Shown piece after piece: positions 35,352 through 39,798 of a stretch of DNA of 60,941 bases. Origin of the DNA: Odoribacteraceae bacterium (lineage in GTDB: Bacteria; Bacteroidota; Bacteroidia; Bacteroidales; Marinifilaceae); NCBI GenBank assembly GCA_031276355.1, contig JAISNC010000093.1, positions 1 to 60,941 on the forward strand, written 5' to 3'. The stretch's first letter is position 1, and every line of letters starts with the position of its first letter. A program made the translations under genes and the position numbers. The notes beneath the pieces are model-generated. The model was not told where the DNA came from. It did no database searches and saw nothing but the letters and a program-made list of their open reading frames with translations.

Positions 35352-35567
35352 TTAGGGTTTAGAAATTAATTGTTCAATTACATGGTCACTTTTCTCTTGA
35401 AAAGTCCCGTATCGTGAATTTAGATAGTTCGGCATAAGAAAAAGGCGGAAGAGAAGAAACATGACGCCCAATTTGATGATAACAATCAACCAAAGCCGTC
35501 GTCCCCAGGCAGGCATGTTGCGGAAACCGTCGTAATACAGTTTCCAGATACGCGTAAATACAGGCAT
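35352..35567 (-). CDS. DUF4492 family small membrane protein upstream of cydA
   Basis: A 71-aa protein with one transmembrane helix (LWLIVIIKLGVMFLLFRLFL, about residues 25-44) and an N-terminal YYDGFRNMPAWGRRLW motif. This matches the DUF4492 family, which sits immediately upstream of cydA in Bacteroidota and probably assists assembly or stability of the bd oxidase; that role is inference from conserved context. It ends 4 bp before the cydA start. Confidence 0.85.
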   Translation of the reverse strand: MPVFTRIWKLYYDGFRNMPAWGRRLWLIVIIKLGVMFLLFRLFLMPNYLNSRYGTFQEKSDHVIEQLISKP

Positions 35568-35819: not shown

Positions 35820-35849
35820 TTGTGCGGTACAAACTATTCGTTACCTTTG
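35820..35849 (+). promoter_or_regulatory. Housekeeping promoter for the Cys-rich leader and FecR-like gene
   Basis: TTG (35820-35822), 19 bp, TACCTTTG (35842-35849): a perfect Bacteroidota -33/-7 promoter. The predicted start is near 35856, about 19 nt upstream of the Cys-rich leader ORF. Confidence 0.75.
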
Positions 35850-35874
35850 TCCCGGTTTTACCAACGAAGTATAT

Positions 35875-35961
35875 ATGAATATCATTGTTTCCAGCGAATT
35901 AACGTGCTCCCGCATGTGTTGTTGTACCGGTTACTGCCGGGGCGGGTGTTTCGTGTCGTGA
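35875..35961 (+). CDS. Cys-rich 28-aa leader peptide (candidate attenuator peptide)
   Basis: A short ORF from ATG 35875 to TGA 35959-35961, too short for the ORF track. It encodes 28 residues with six Cys, clustered as CSRMCCCTGYCRGGC and including three consecutive TGT codons (35917-35925). It sits between a perfect promoter and a strong terminator. GCCGGG at 35936-35941, within its last codons, can pair with CCCGGC (35989-35994) in the terminator's 5' arm. Also CCGG (35927-35930) can pair with CCGG (35937-35940). This is the layout of ribosome-mediated attenuation, with stalling at Cys codons favouring antitermination. Direct metal binding by the peptide is an alternative. Confidence 0.6.
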   Translation: MNIIVSSELTCSRMCCCTGYCRGGCFVS

Positions 35962-35985
35962 AGAGACGAGAAGAGAATTTACAAT

Positions 35986-36011
35986 AGGCCCGGCTGACAC
36001 CGGGCTTTTTT
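35986..36011 (+). terminator. Attenuator terminator between Cys leader and FecR-like gene
   Basis: GCCCGG (35988-35993) pairs with CCGGGC (36000-36005) around CTGACA, extended by A-T and G-T pairs, and is followed by TTTTTT. It lies 24 bp after the leader stop and 19 bp before the FecR-like ATG, so it must be read through for that gene to be expressed. Confidence 0.8.
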
Positions 36012-36029
36012 ATTTATACGAACTTTAAA

Positions 36030-36743
36030 ATGATCACCATGAGAAGACATCTTTACTTACTGCCCCTCGCGCTGGCCCTCGTTTCCTCCTGCCGGGCCGG
36101 GGGTGACGGCATCGTGCGCCTTGTCACGCCCCGGGGAGGCGAGTATTCGGTCATCCTGCCCGACGGCACGCGGGTATGGCTGAACGTCGAGAGCGAGCTG
36201 ACCTACCCGTCGCGTTTTCGCGCGGGGTCACGCGAGGTACACCTTCGGGGAGAGGCCTACTTCAAGACGGTGCCGGACGCGCGGGAGCCGTTCGTCATCC
36301 ATGCCGGCGGCGTGACGCTGTTGGTGCCGGGGACGGAGTGTAACGTGCGTGTCGCGGGCGAGGAGGTGATCGTCACGCCGGTGGGTGGTGCGTTGCTCGT
36401 ACGGGCCGGCGGCGGGCAAGCCGTTTGTCATCCGCGGGTGGGGCAACAAGCCGTGTGGCGCGCGGGCGCGTTCACGGTGGCAGATGCGGACATTGGGTTG
36501 AACGTCGCGTGGAAAGAGGGTTACTTCGACTGTCGCGGCGTTCCCCTGGAGCAAGTGCTGGAGGAGCTTGCCCGCTGGTACGACTTCACCTACTCGTTCC
36601 GTTCTTCGGCTGCCCGCGCTCGTGTCGTGACGGCTCGTTTCTCTCGTTTTGATGACCTCGACCGGGTGTTGGTGACCCTGTCGAGCGATGAGTTTCTCCT
36701 TGTCCGCGAGGGCAAAACGGTGGTGGTCACTGCCCGGCGGTAA
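36030..36743 (+). CDS. Orphan FecR/DUF4974-like lipoprotein lacking the anti-sigma region
   Basis: A 237-aa protein equal to the periplasmic part of a FecR. The FecR domain is at about 30-130 (LPDGTRVWLNVESELTYPSRF, EAYFKTVPDAREPFVIHAGG) and a C-terminal DUF4974 at about 165-235 (GVPLEQVLEELARWYDFTY). The cytoplasmic sigma-binding part and transmembrane helix of normal FecR are absent; instead the N-terminus is a signal peptide with a possible lipobox, LVSSC. No ECF sigma factor or SusC adjoins it. The start may be 36030 or 36039 (MRRHLY). Expression appears gated by the Cys-leader attenuator. It may titrate or modify an STN-domain signalling pathway; that is speculation. Confidence 0.8.
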   Translation: MITMRRHLYLLPLALALVSSCRAGGDGIVRLVTPRGGEYSVILPDGTRVWLNVESELTYPSRFRAGSREVHLRGEAYFKTVPDAREPFVIHAGGVTLLVPGTECNVRVAGEEVIVTPVGGALLVRAGGGQAVCHPRVGQQAVWRAGAFTVADADIGLNVAWKEGYFDCRGVPLEQVLEELARWYDFTYSFRSSAARARVVTARFSRFDDLDRVLVTLSSDEFLLVREGKTVVVTARR

Positions 36744-37575: not shown

Positions 37576-38760
37576 TTACCACCCTGAACGTATCCTTGCC
37601 AACGCCTCTCGCAGCCGCTCTTCCCGGCAACAGAGGGAGATGCGGGCGTACCGGTTGCCGTTGTTTCCGAAGATAACCCCCGGCGTGATGAAAACGCGGG
37701 CCCGGCGCAACACCTCGTCGCCCATCTCTTCGCCGTCGCGCCACTCGTCGGCCACGCGGCCCCAGAGGAAAAGGCCGCGTTGCTCCGTCCGGCACGAGCA
37801 GTGAAGCGCGCGCATGATCTCTTCGGCCACCTCCCGCCGGGCGGCGTACATCCGGTTGTTCGCCACGTACCACTCCCGGCCCGCCTCCAGCGCTTGCGCC
37901 GCCGCCAGCATCACCGGTCGGAACTGCCCGCTGTCGACGTTACTCTTCACCTTTAATATCCACTCGACGAACCGCGCGTTCGAAGCGAGCATCGCCACGC
38001 GCCACCCCGGCATGTTGTGTGACTTGCTCAGCGAGTTCATCTCGATACAGCACTCCCGGGCACCCTCCACGGCGAGAATACTCCCGGGGCTGTCGTTCAG
38101 GATAAAGCTATACGGGTTATCGTGACAGACGACGATGCCGTGGCGCCGCCCGAATGTCGTCAGTCGCTCGAAGATCTCGCGCGTGGCCGGTGCGCCCGTC
38201 GGCATGTGAGGATAGTTCGCCCACATCAACTTCACCCGCGAGAGGTCGCGTCGTTCGAGTGCCTCCCAGTCCGGTGCCCACTCCCGTTCTTCGTGCAGGG
38301 CGTAGGGTACGGGCACGCCCCCGGCGAGGCGCGTGGCCGAGCTGTAGGTCGGGTAGCCGGGGTCGGGCACCAGCACCTCGTCGCCCGGGTCGAGGAAGGC
38401 CAGTGACACGTGCAGTATCCCCTCCTTTGACCCGATCAGTGGCAGCACCTCGCGCGTGGCATCCAGTTCGACACCGTACCAGCGGCGGTACCACCCCGCA
38501 AACGCCTCCCGTAGCTCCGGGATCCCCGCGTACGACTGGTAGCCGTGCGTGTCCGCCCGTCGCGCTTCCCGGCACAGCGTCTCGATCACCGCCCCGTCGG
38601 GCGGCGTGTCCGGGCTACCGATGCCGAGGTTGATCACGTCGGCCCCGGCGGCGTTCATCGCGGCGATCTCCTTCAACTTGCGCGAGAAATAGTACTCGTG
38701 GATTGCCTCCAGCCGTCGCGCGGGGTGGAAGCCGGGTGTCGGGTCAGCGTGCGTCATCAT
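37576..38760 (-). CDS. Class I/II PLP-dependent aminotransferase, probably aromatic amino acid synthesis
   Basis: A 394-aa fold-type I aminotransferase. Visible motifs are NLGIGSPDTPP, YQSYAGIPELREAFA, the DPGYPTYSSA segment, HDNPYS and the PLP-binding lysine in NSLSKSHNMPGWR (near residue 235). It resembles LL-diaminopimelate/aspartate-type aminotransferases, but its place between pheA and tyrA points to transamination of phenylpyruvate and hydroxyphenylpyruvate. The start overlaps pheA by 17 bp, implying translational coupling; ATG at 38757 is equally possible. Confidence 0.88.
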   Translation of the reverse strand: MMTHADPTPGFHPARRLEAIHEYYFSRKLKEIAAMNAAGADVINLGIGSPDTPPDGAVIETLCREARRADTHGYQSYAGIPELREAFAGWYRRWYGVELDATREVLPLIGSKEGILHVSLAFLDPGDEVLVPDPGYPTYSSATRLAGGVPVPYALHEEREWAPDWEALERRDLSRVKLMWANYPHMPTGAPATREIFERLTTFGRRHGIVVCHDNPYSFILNDSPGSILAVEGARECCIEMNSLSKSHNMPGWRVAMLASNARFVEWILKVKSNVDSGQFRPVMLAAAQALEAGREWYVANNRMYAARREVAEEIMRALHCSCRTEQRGLFLWGRVADEWRDGEEMGDEVLRRARVFITPGVIFGNNGNRYARISLCCREERLREALARIRSGW

Positions 38761-39595
38761 GATACTCGGTATATTCGCCCAGGATTTTAAACTCGTTCAT
38801 CAACGGGCGCGTCGCGTCCAGCCCTTGCCTGTACTTCAGGATCTGCTCGAACGTGAAGTCCACGTAGAAAAGATACTCCCACTCGCGCCCCAGTATCGGC
38901 AGCGACTGGATGCGGGTCAGGTTCATGTCATAGAACGAGAAGATCGCCAGTACCCGCGACAGGCTTCCCCCGGCGTGCGGGAGCGTGAAGACGATCGATG
39001 CCTTGTTAATGGCCGTCTCGTCCACCAGTTCCCGGATCTTCCACGGGTTGGCTACCAGCAGGAAGCGCGTAAAATTGCGTTTGTTCGTCTCGATGCCCTC
39101 GGCCAGTACCTCCAGCCCGTACATCCCGGCCGCCTCCCGGCTACAGATGGCCGCGTGCCCCCGCGATCCCTGTTCGGCGATAAAGCGGGCGCTGAGAGCG
39201 GTATCTTCCTCCTCGACGATCTTCACGCGGGGCAGCGCGTCCAAGTAGTCGGCACACTGCATCAGGGCGATCGGGTGTGAATGTACCTCCCGGATCGTCT
39301 CGATCGTCTCGCCGGGCAGGGCGGCGAGGGCGTGCGTGATGCGGGTCTTCTGCTCGCCGACCACGGCGAGGTCACTCCCGCGGATCAGCGCGTGGTTTTG
39401 CAGCAGGCTCCCGGCGATCGTGTTCTCGATGGCCAGGATCCCGATCATCTCCGGTTCCCGTTTCACGGCCGCGATCACGTCCTTGAAGCGGGCGCAGGGG
39501 AGGATCTCGATCTCCTCGCCCCTCGACTTGAAATAGGCGCGGGCAGCGATCTCGTGATATGCCCCCGGGCCTCCTTGAATGGCTACTCTCTTCAT
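38744..39595 (-). CDS. pheA: Prephenate dehydratase
   Basis: A 283-aa monofunctional prephenate dehydratase, converting prephenate to phenylpyruvate. The catalytic domain covers about 1-180 (IQGGPGAYHEIAARAYF, PIENT-like LAIENTIAGSL, and the TRF motif in NFTRFLLV). A C-terminal ACT regulatory domain is at about 195-270 (IVFTLPHAGGSLSRVLAIF, LTRIQSLPILGREWEY), usually the site of phenylalanine feedback inhibition. The ORF track starts at 39622 inside the attenuator hairpin region; ATG 39595 (MKRVAIQGG) is correct. It is first in its operon, preceded by a Phe/Tyr leader. Confidence 0.94.
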   Translation of the reverse strand: MKRVAIQGGPGAYHEIAARAYFKSRGEEIEILPCARFKDVIAAVKREPEMIGILAIENTIAGSLLQNHALIRGSDLAVVGEQKTRITHALAALPGETIETIREVHSHPIALMQCADYLDALPRVKIVEEEDTALSARFIAEQGSRGHAAICSREAAGMYGLEVLAEGIETNKRNFTRFLLVANPWKIRELVDETAINKASIVFTLPHAGGSLSRVLAIFSFYDMNLTRIQSLPILGREWEYLFYVDFTFEQILKYRQGLDATRPLMNEFKILGEYTEYHDDAR

Positions 39596-39601
39596 GCGTT
39601 T

Positions 39602-39636
39602 AAAAATAAAGAATCCCGTCATCTCTGACAGGATTC
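39602..39636 (-). terminator. pheA attenuator terminator
   Basis: On the minus strand GAATCCTGTCA pairs with TGACGGGATTC (11 bp, one G-U) around GAGA, followed by TTTATTTTT. It ends 7 bp before the pheA ATG. The 5' arm can instead pair with GGACAGGATC (39686-39677), which lies directly after the leader stop, giving a mutually exclusive antiterminator. Confidence 0.85.
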
Positions 39637-39690
39637 GCGTGTTTCACTTCGTATTTATGTTCGTTCTACCATGCCGATCCTGTCCCCTTT

Positions 39691-39741
39691 CATGTAAAAT
39701 AAAAGTAGTGGAAAGAAAAGGTATGATAAAATCGTTTCATC
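39691..39741 (-). CDS. pheL: Phe/Tyr-rich leader peptide of the pheA operon
   Basis: A 16-residue ORF absent from the ORF track: MKRFYHTFSFHYFYFT, with six Phe and three Tyr among 16 residues. Five of the six Phe codons are TTT, the form less used in the GC-rich neighbouring genes. It is preceded by a TTG-N18-TACCTTTG promoter (39770-39798) and followed by an antiterminator strand and a terminator before pheA. This is a textbook ribosome-mediated attenuator: scarcity of charged Phe or Tyr tRNA stalls the ribosome and permits readthrough. Confidence 0.8.
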
Positions 39742-39769
39742 GCTCGTGTTTTATCGTGTTTGGCGGGCC

Positions 39770-39798
39770 AAAGGTAGCGGTTTTTTCCCGGCGTACAA
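39770..39798 (-). promoter_or_regulatory. Promoter of the pheA operon
   Basis: On the minus strand, TTG (39798-39796), 18 bp, TACCTTTG (39777-39770), a full Bacteroidota housekeeping promoter. The predicted start is near 39763, about 22 nt before the leader peptide ATG. Confidence 0.75.

Follow-up and report, generated by a model that had tools for sequence, protein, structure and literature searches.

We identified, between positions 35820 and 36743 of the window (the whole 60,941-nt stretch of DNA analyzed here), what we take with a probability of about 0.7 to be a ribosome-mediated transcription attenuator that senses charged cysteinyl-tRNA and controls an orphan periplasmic FecR-like lipoprotein. 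The protein is probably made only when cysteine for protein synthesis is short, cysteine supply being the signal that we infer. The initial annotation had proposed that cysteine controls a component of cell-surface signaling. Given the anatomy of the element, a Phe/Tyr control present in the same window, and the Cys leaders found before cysK in relatives, ribosome-mediated attenuation by cysteine is the best reading of the first part, and the signaling part is half right. If this reading is true, cysteine attenuation extends to Bacteroidota, where the cysK leaders of relatives would provide a natural test set, and a Cys leader would be found in front of a gene that is not part of cysteine metabolism. 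As a candidate FecR receptor domain that stands alone, the protein itself could serve to study how FecR proteins recognize TonB receptors. In the literature that we searched on Cys and leader attenuation, whose coverage is incomplete, Cys attenuation is not described for Bacteroidota.

Anatomy of the leader region

The plus strand carries, in this order, a promoter (35820-35849), a leader ORF (35875-35961), an intrinsic terminator (35986-36011), and the FecR-like gene (36030-36743). This is the order of an attenuator, and promoter, Cys-rich ORF, terminator, and gene start lie within at most 220 nt. The perfect promoter claimed previously is indeed an exact match to the Bacteroidota-type TTG-N19-TACCTTTG, with a putative transcript start near 35854-35856. 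The consensus TTG-N19-TAnnTTTG has two copies in the 61-kb window for 0.12 expected, and none of the shuffles reached two. Genome-wide it has 66 occurrences, compared with 22 for a reversed-pattern control. Since the operon upstream, DUF4492-cydA-cydB (cytochrome bd), is divergent, the plus strand promoter belongs to no upstream gene. The DUF4492 ORF (35352-35567, minus strand) adjoins cydA upstream and is conserved in the genus. On the downstream side, tyrA converges on the FecR-like gene. Only 18 nt separate the T-run of the terminator from the start of the FecR-like gene, which leaves no place for a promoter of its own. Hence, the gene must be transcribed through the terminator, which stands between the leader ORF and a gene lacking any other promoter.

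The leader ORF (MNIIVSSELTCSRMCCCTGYCRGGCFVS) has 28 codons, of which six encode Cys, so that a short ORF rich in the codons of a single amino acid follows the exact promoter, as in attenuators. The Cys codons are at 35905-35907, 35917-35925 (TGT-TGT-TGT, as originally described), 35935-35937, and 35947-35949, with the spacing C-x3-CCC-x3-C-x3-C. The window contains 235 ATG ORFs with lengths of 15-50 codons, and no other reaches six Cys or has a CCC run. Dinucleotide shuffling of the leader region, repeated 5000 times, never gave an ORF of up to 30 codons with at least six Cys. Cys accounts for 0.78% of the codons in the 27 genes of the window, which puts the probability of finding at least six in 28 at around 7e-8. 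Four of the six are TGT, the minority codon (36 TGT for 83 TGC across the 27 genes). The 28-aa peptide matches no Pfam family, including DUF2946/CruR.

The terminator, found by terminator scan and fold energy, consists of a GCCCGG/CCGGGC stem followed by TTTTTT. Its energy is -13.7 kcal/mol and none of 200 shuffles was as good, in line with the GC hairpin first noted just before the gene. Directly 3' of the CCC run, a 15-nt strand (35927-35941, plus strand) containing CCGGU and then GCCGGG gives a competing fold, as it can pair with both arms of the terminator hairpin. The previously claimed pairing GCCGGG/CCCGGC (35936-35941 with 35989-35994) is confirmed, and is extended by a second one, CCGGU/ACCGG (35927-35931 with 35999-36003). 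The fold of 35925-36013 has an energy of -33.2 kcal/mol (z -3.29, a value equaled by one of 200 shuffles). Terminator and antiterminator are predicted to exclude each other, and both beat shuffles (z around -3.3 to -3.7); the energy of the duplex between leader and terminator was matched by 8 of 400 shuffles.

In an equilibrium model, the probability of the terminator is 0.04 when the RNA is free from 35925-35928 and 0.99 when it is free from 35931 onward. The switch point thus lies 8-11 nt downstream of the first nucleotide of the CCC run (35917), close to the expected front edge of a ribosome stalled at its first codon. It depends on the assumed footprint, since a ribosome edge 1-2 nt further downstream restores the terminator at equilibrium. 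Co-transcriptional kinetics would favor the antiterminator, whose strand emerges first. An equally low dip somewhere in the leader was observed in 56 of 400 shuffles. Since the same test on control leaders shows no clear switch, its power is limited and we use it as supportive evidence only.

In the proposed mechanism, transcription would start near 35855. When cysteine is ample, ribosomes would pass the Cys codons and reach the stop at 35961, covering the antiterminator strand 35927-35941, so that the terminator 35986-36011 would fold and the transcript would end at around 160 nt. A shortage of charged tRNA-Cys would stall the leading ribosome at either Cys11 or the first of the three consecutive Cys codons, leaving the strand ahead free to pair with the terminator arms, and the polymerase would enter the FecR gene. 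If the A site held the codon at 35917, a front edge 8-11 nt on would result in antitermination and one 1-2 nt further in termination.

Leaders of the same layout and known cysteine leaders

The window contains an internal control on the minus strand. The second and only other exact copy of the promoter consensus, TTG-N19-TACCTTTG at 39769-39798, precedes a Phe/Tyr-rich leader ORF (MKRFYHTFSFHYFYFT, 39690-39740) and a terminator (39611-39636) located directly before the prephenate dehydratase gene pheA (38744-39595, Pfam PDT). Three further members of the genus (L246-L248) have the leaders MTAQRFYRSFFFHYFYFT, MTRRFYHSLSYYYFYRDESKTGRV, and MTHRFYTYSFYYFHFRGK, and a hairpin sequence separates each of these from the gene. 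The Phe/Tyr attenuator is therefore kept in all four genus members examined, with divergent peptides, which indicates that the lineage uses leader-peptide attenuators. The Cys element shares with this control both the promoter consensus and the layout.

Further support, by analogy, comes from cysK. In three relatives in the order, a promoter, a CCC leader, and a terminator directly precede this gene. The leaders are MNKKMIYLNSYNCCCCCQSLDCVGKLVV (L153), MTLFILNSSCCCFLKSEDGQ (L155), and MKINKLNNTCCCSRIKVCCR (L296, with a TATATTTG promoter), and a hairpin with a T-run lies between each of them and cysK. They resemble the window element in the order of the parts, a CCC or CCCCC run, a length of 20-28 codons, and an intrinsic terminator close before the gene. 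However, they would control cysK, and neither their peptides nor their RNA can be aligned to the window leader, so they back the Cys reading without being homologous to it. They also fit the earlier suggestion that a leader once belonging to sulfur genes was recruited. The number of CCC ORFs upstream of cysK relative to control windows is not significant alone because antisense poly-Gln gives false matches. The case for the cysK leaders rests on their anatomy. The cysK genes inspected in the window's own genus lack such a Cys leader.

Other ORFs were observed near cysK. Five genomes of the family (G008-G011 and G013, loci L175-L179) have leaders of 34-35 codons before a second cysK; close to the C-terminus these carry six or seven consecutive Cys, followed by RCR in two of them. 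These five leaders have no obvious intrinsic terminator, and in L175 a CTCTCC/GGAGAG hairpin lacking a T-run lies between leader and cysK. In one genus, two genomes (L181 and L182) have an ORF MNKMNSIENVFSATHTCCCCCCC, with one residue different, around 590 nt upstream of a cysK relative.

The leader could instead stand as a gene in its own right, coding for a small Cys-rich peptide that binds metal or buffers thiols and ending in its own terminator, with the FecR gene expressed solely through leaky readthrough. Promoter, ORF, and terminator do make a complete small transcription unit. We nevertheless consider this improbable, since the peptide is conserved in no genome searched and matches no family, an antiterminator strand would not be expected, the FecR gene would be left without its own promoter, and this layout has a regulatory form where it recurs before pheA and cysK.

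Cysteine attenuation has precedents in other bacteria. The uORFC-8-2 motif found before cysS in Rhodobacterales, with 145 conserved examples, is presumed to act by ribosome-mediated attenuation (PMC8632094). Like the window element, it combines alternative stems and an intrinsic terminator with a short ORF whose tandem Cys codons fall at around positions 14-15. It differs in occurring in Alphaproteobacteria and in controlling cysteinyl-tRNA synthetase (PMC8632094), and the two have no sequence relation. Mycobacteria have polycysteine leader ORFs (PMC4633059, PMC1262725). Runs of Cys codons in these short upstream ORFs, as in the window, are reported to slow the ribosome according to cysteine supply and thereby to attenuate downstream genes (Canestrari 2020, as cited in PMC9031893). 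In contrast to the window element, they lie on leaderless mRNAs with no obvious intrinsic terminator and mostly before sulfur-assimilation genes (PMC9031893).

A different kind of sensing is found in CruR of Bordetella, a copper-responsive upstream ORF whose product is an exported DUF2946 protein of 145 residues that carries CXXC and RAPP motifs, and for which termination is Rho-dependent (PMC9426467). Like the window leader, it is a Cys-containing upstream ORF before a gene linked to TonB transport, but the likeness fails on size, motifs, and type of termination (PMC9426467). If the nascent peptide of the window were such a sensor, copper, zinc, or thiol redox would act on its Cys residues and stall the ribosome. 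The six Cys in 28 residues with their C-x3-CCC-x3-C-x3-C spacing, the TonB-signaling relative encoded downstream, and the divergent cytochrome bd operon could be accounted for in this way. This is slightly less probable still than a small-peptide gene, since DUF2946, CXXC, and RAPP are absent from the leader, the terminator is intrinsic, and the relatives with the same layout control cysK. The initial proposal of metal or redox sensing is thus left unsupported, there being no DUF2946/CruR match and termination being intrinsic rather than Rho-dependent.

The orphan FecR-like lipoprotein

The plus strand gene at 36030-36743 (start possibly at 36042) encodes a FecR-like lipoprotein of 237 aa, according to Pfam, alignment, and phmmer. 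Pfam identified FecR (6e-14) and FecR_C (1e-9), which bears out the FecR/DUF4974-like gene claimed at first, and the ORF is intact across both domains. The protein has a signal peptide with a VSSC lipobox and four Cys, that of the lipobox included. Compared with the 390-aa FecR proteins of relatives, to which it is 38-43% identical overall, it has no anti-sigma domain at its N-terminus, no transmembrane helix, and one linker fewer; both periplasmic domains are retained behind the signal peptide. The FecR and FecR_C domains are thus shared with the FecR/PupR-type transmembrane anti-sigma regulators. These regulators have a cytoplasmic anti-sigma domain and a transmembrane helix, whereas the window protein lacks both, has no sigma gene beside it, and carries a lipoprotein signal instead. 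As a signaling component, it has retained the FecR domains that are periplasmic in relatives, but neither the anti-sigma domain and the transmembrane helix nor a neighboring sigma gene. Among the matches listed in the family, it is the only short FecR not at a contig end.

Among the solved relatives retrieved by phmmer are 6ovk/6ovm, in which PupR is bound to the signaling domain of PupB, and 4m0n/4m0h, whose deposited description is that of a putative anti-sigma factor. In PupR (the 6ovk match), the FecR and FecR_C domains face the receptor. Most likely, the lipoprotein would bind the signaling domain of a SusC-like TonB receptor, in competition with full-length FecR anti-sigma regulators. 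It is more speculative, and in our opinion rather unlikely, that under cysteine starvation the free periplasmic FecR domain would compete with full-length FecR so as to retune SusC/TonB signaling toward other nutrients.

Switches with Cys leaders normally guard cysteine-making genes. The window element has the same working plan as the known cysteine attenuators, but its target lies outside cysteine and sulfur metabolism, is not cysS, and has no known link to cysteine.

Distribution of the locus

No ortholog of the leader or of the FecR-like gene was found in 56 genomes of the family or in one GTDB scan, and tblastn searches with the leader in these 56 and in 393 genomes of the order revealed no leader ortholog. 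The other tblastn matches inspected were rejected as out of frame, antisense, or within longer frames in a different setting. The exact pattern MCCCTGYC is absent from genome contigs, a related pattern has 62 matches in viral contigs, and the search of genome contigs with the FecR-like protein confirmed no relative. In the members of the genus, the cydA and tyrA loci have other neighbors than in the window, so that, of the species seen, only this one has the leader-FecR locus.

The lack of orthologs and the species-specific position are what one would expect if a Cys-rich ORF had arisen by chance in a 5' leader whose terminator is constitutive, or if the locus were decaying, but this is the least probable explanation, since the Cys enrichment, the promoter, the terminator, and the antiterminator are each improbable and yet coincide, and no break interrupts the FecR ORF in either Pfam domain.

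Further Cys leaders were sought by pattern in the genome itself, the genus, and the family; most of what matched was T-rich coding DNA or repeats of Leu, Gln, or Ala. Two candidates were inspected and discarded, one being a tRNA flank and the other an overlapping coding region. Upstream of cydA in L042, where the window has the leader and the FecR gene, we observed tandem repeats of around 45 nt with TCTACATNNTGTAGAAAGTA.
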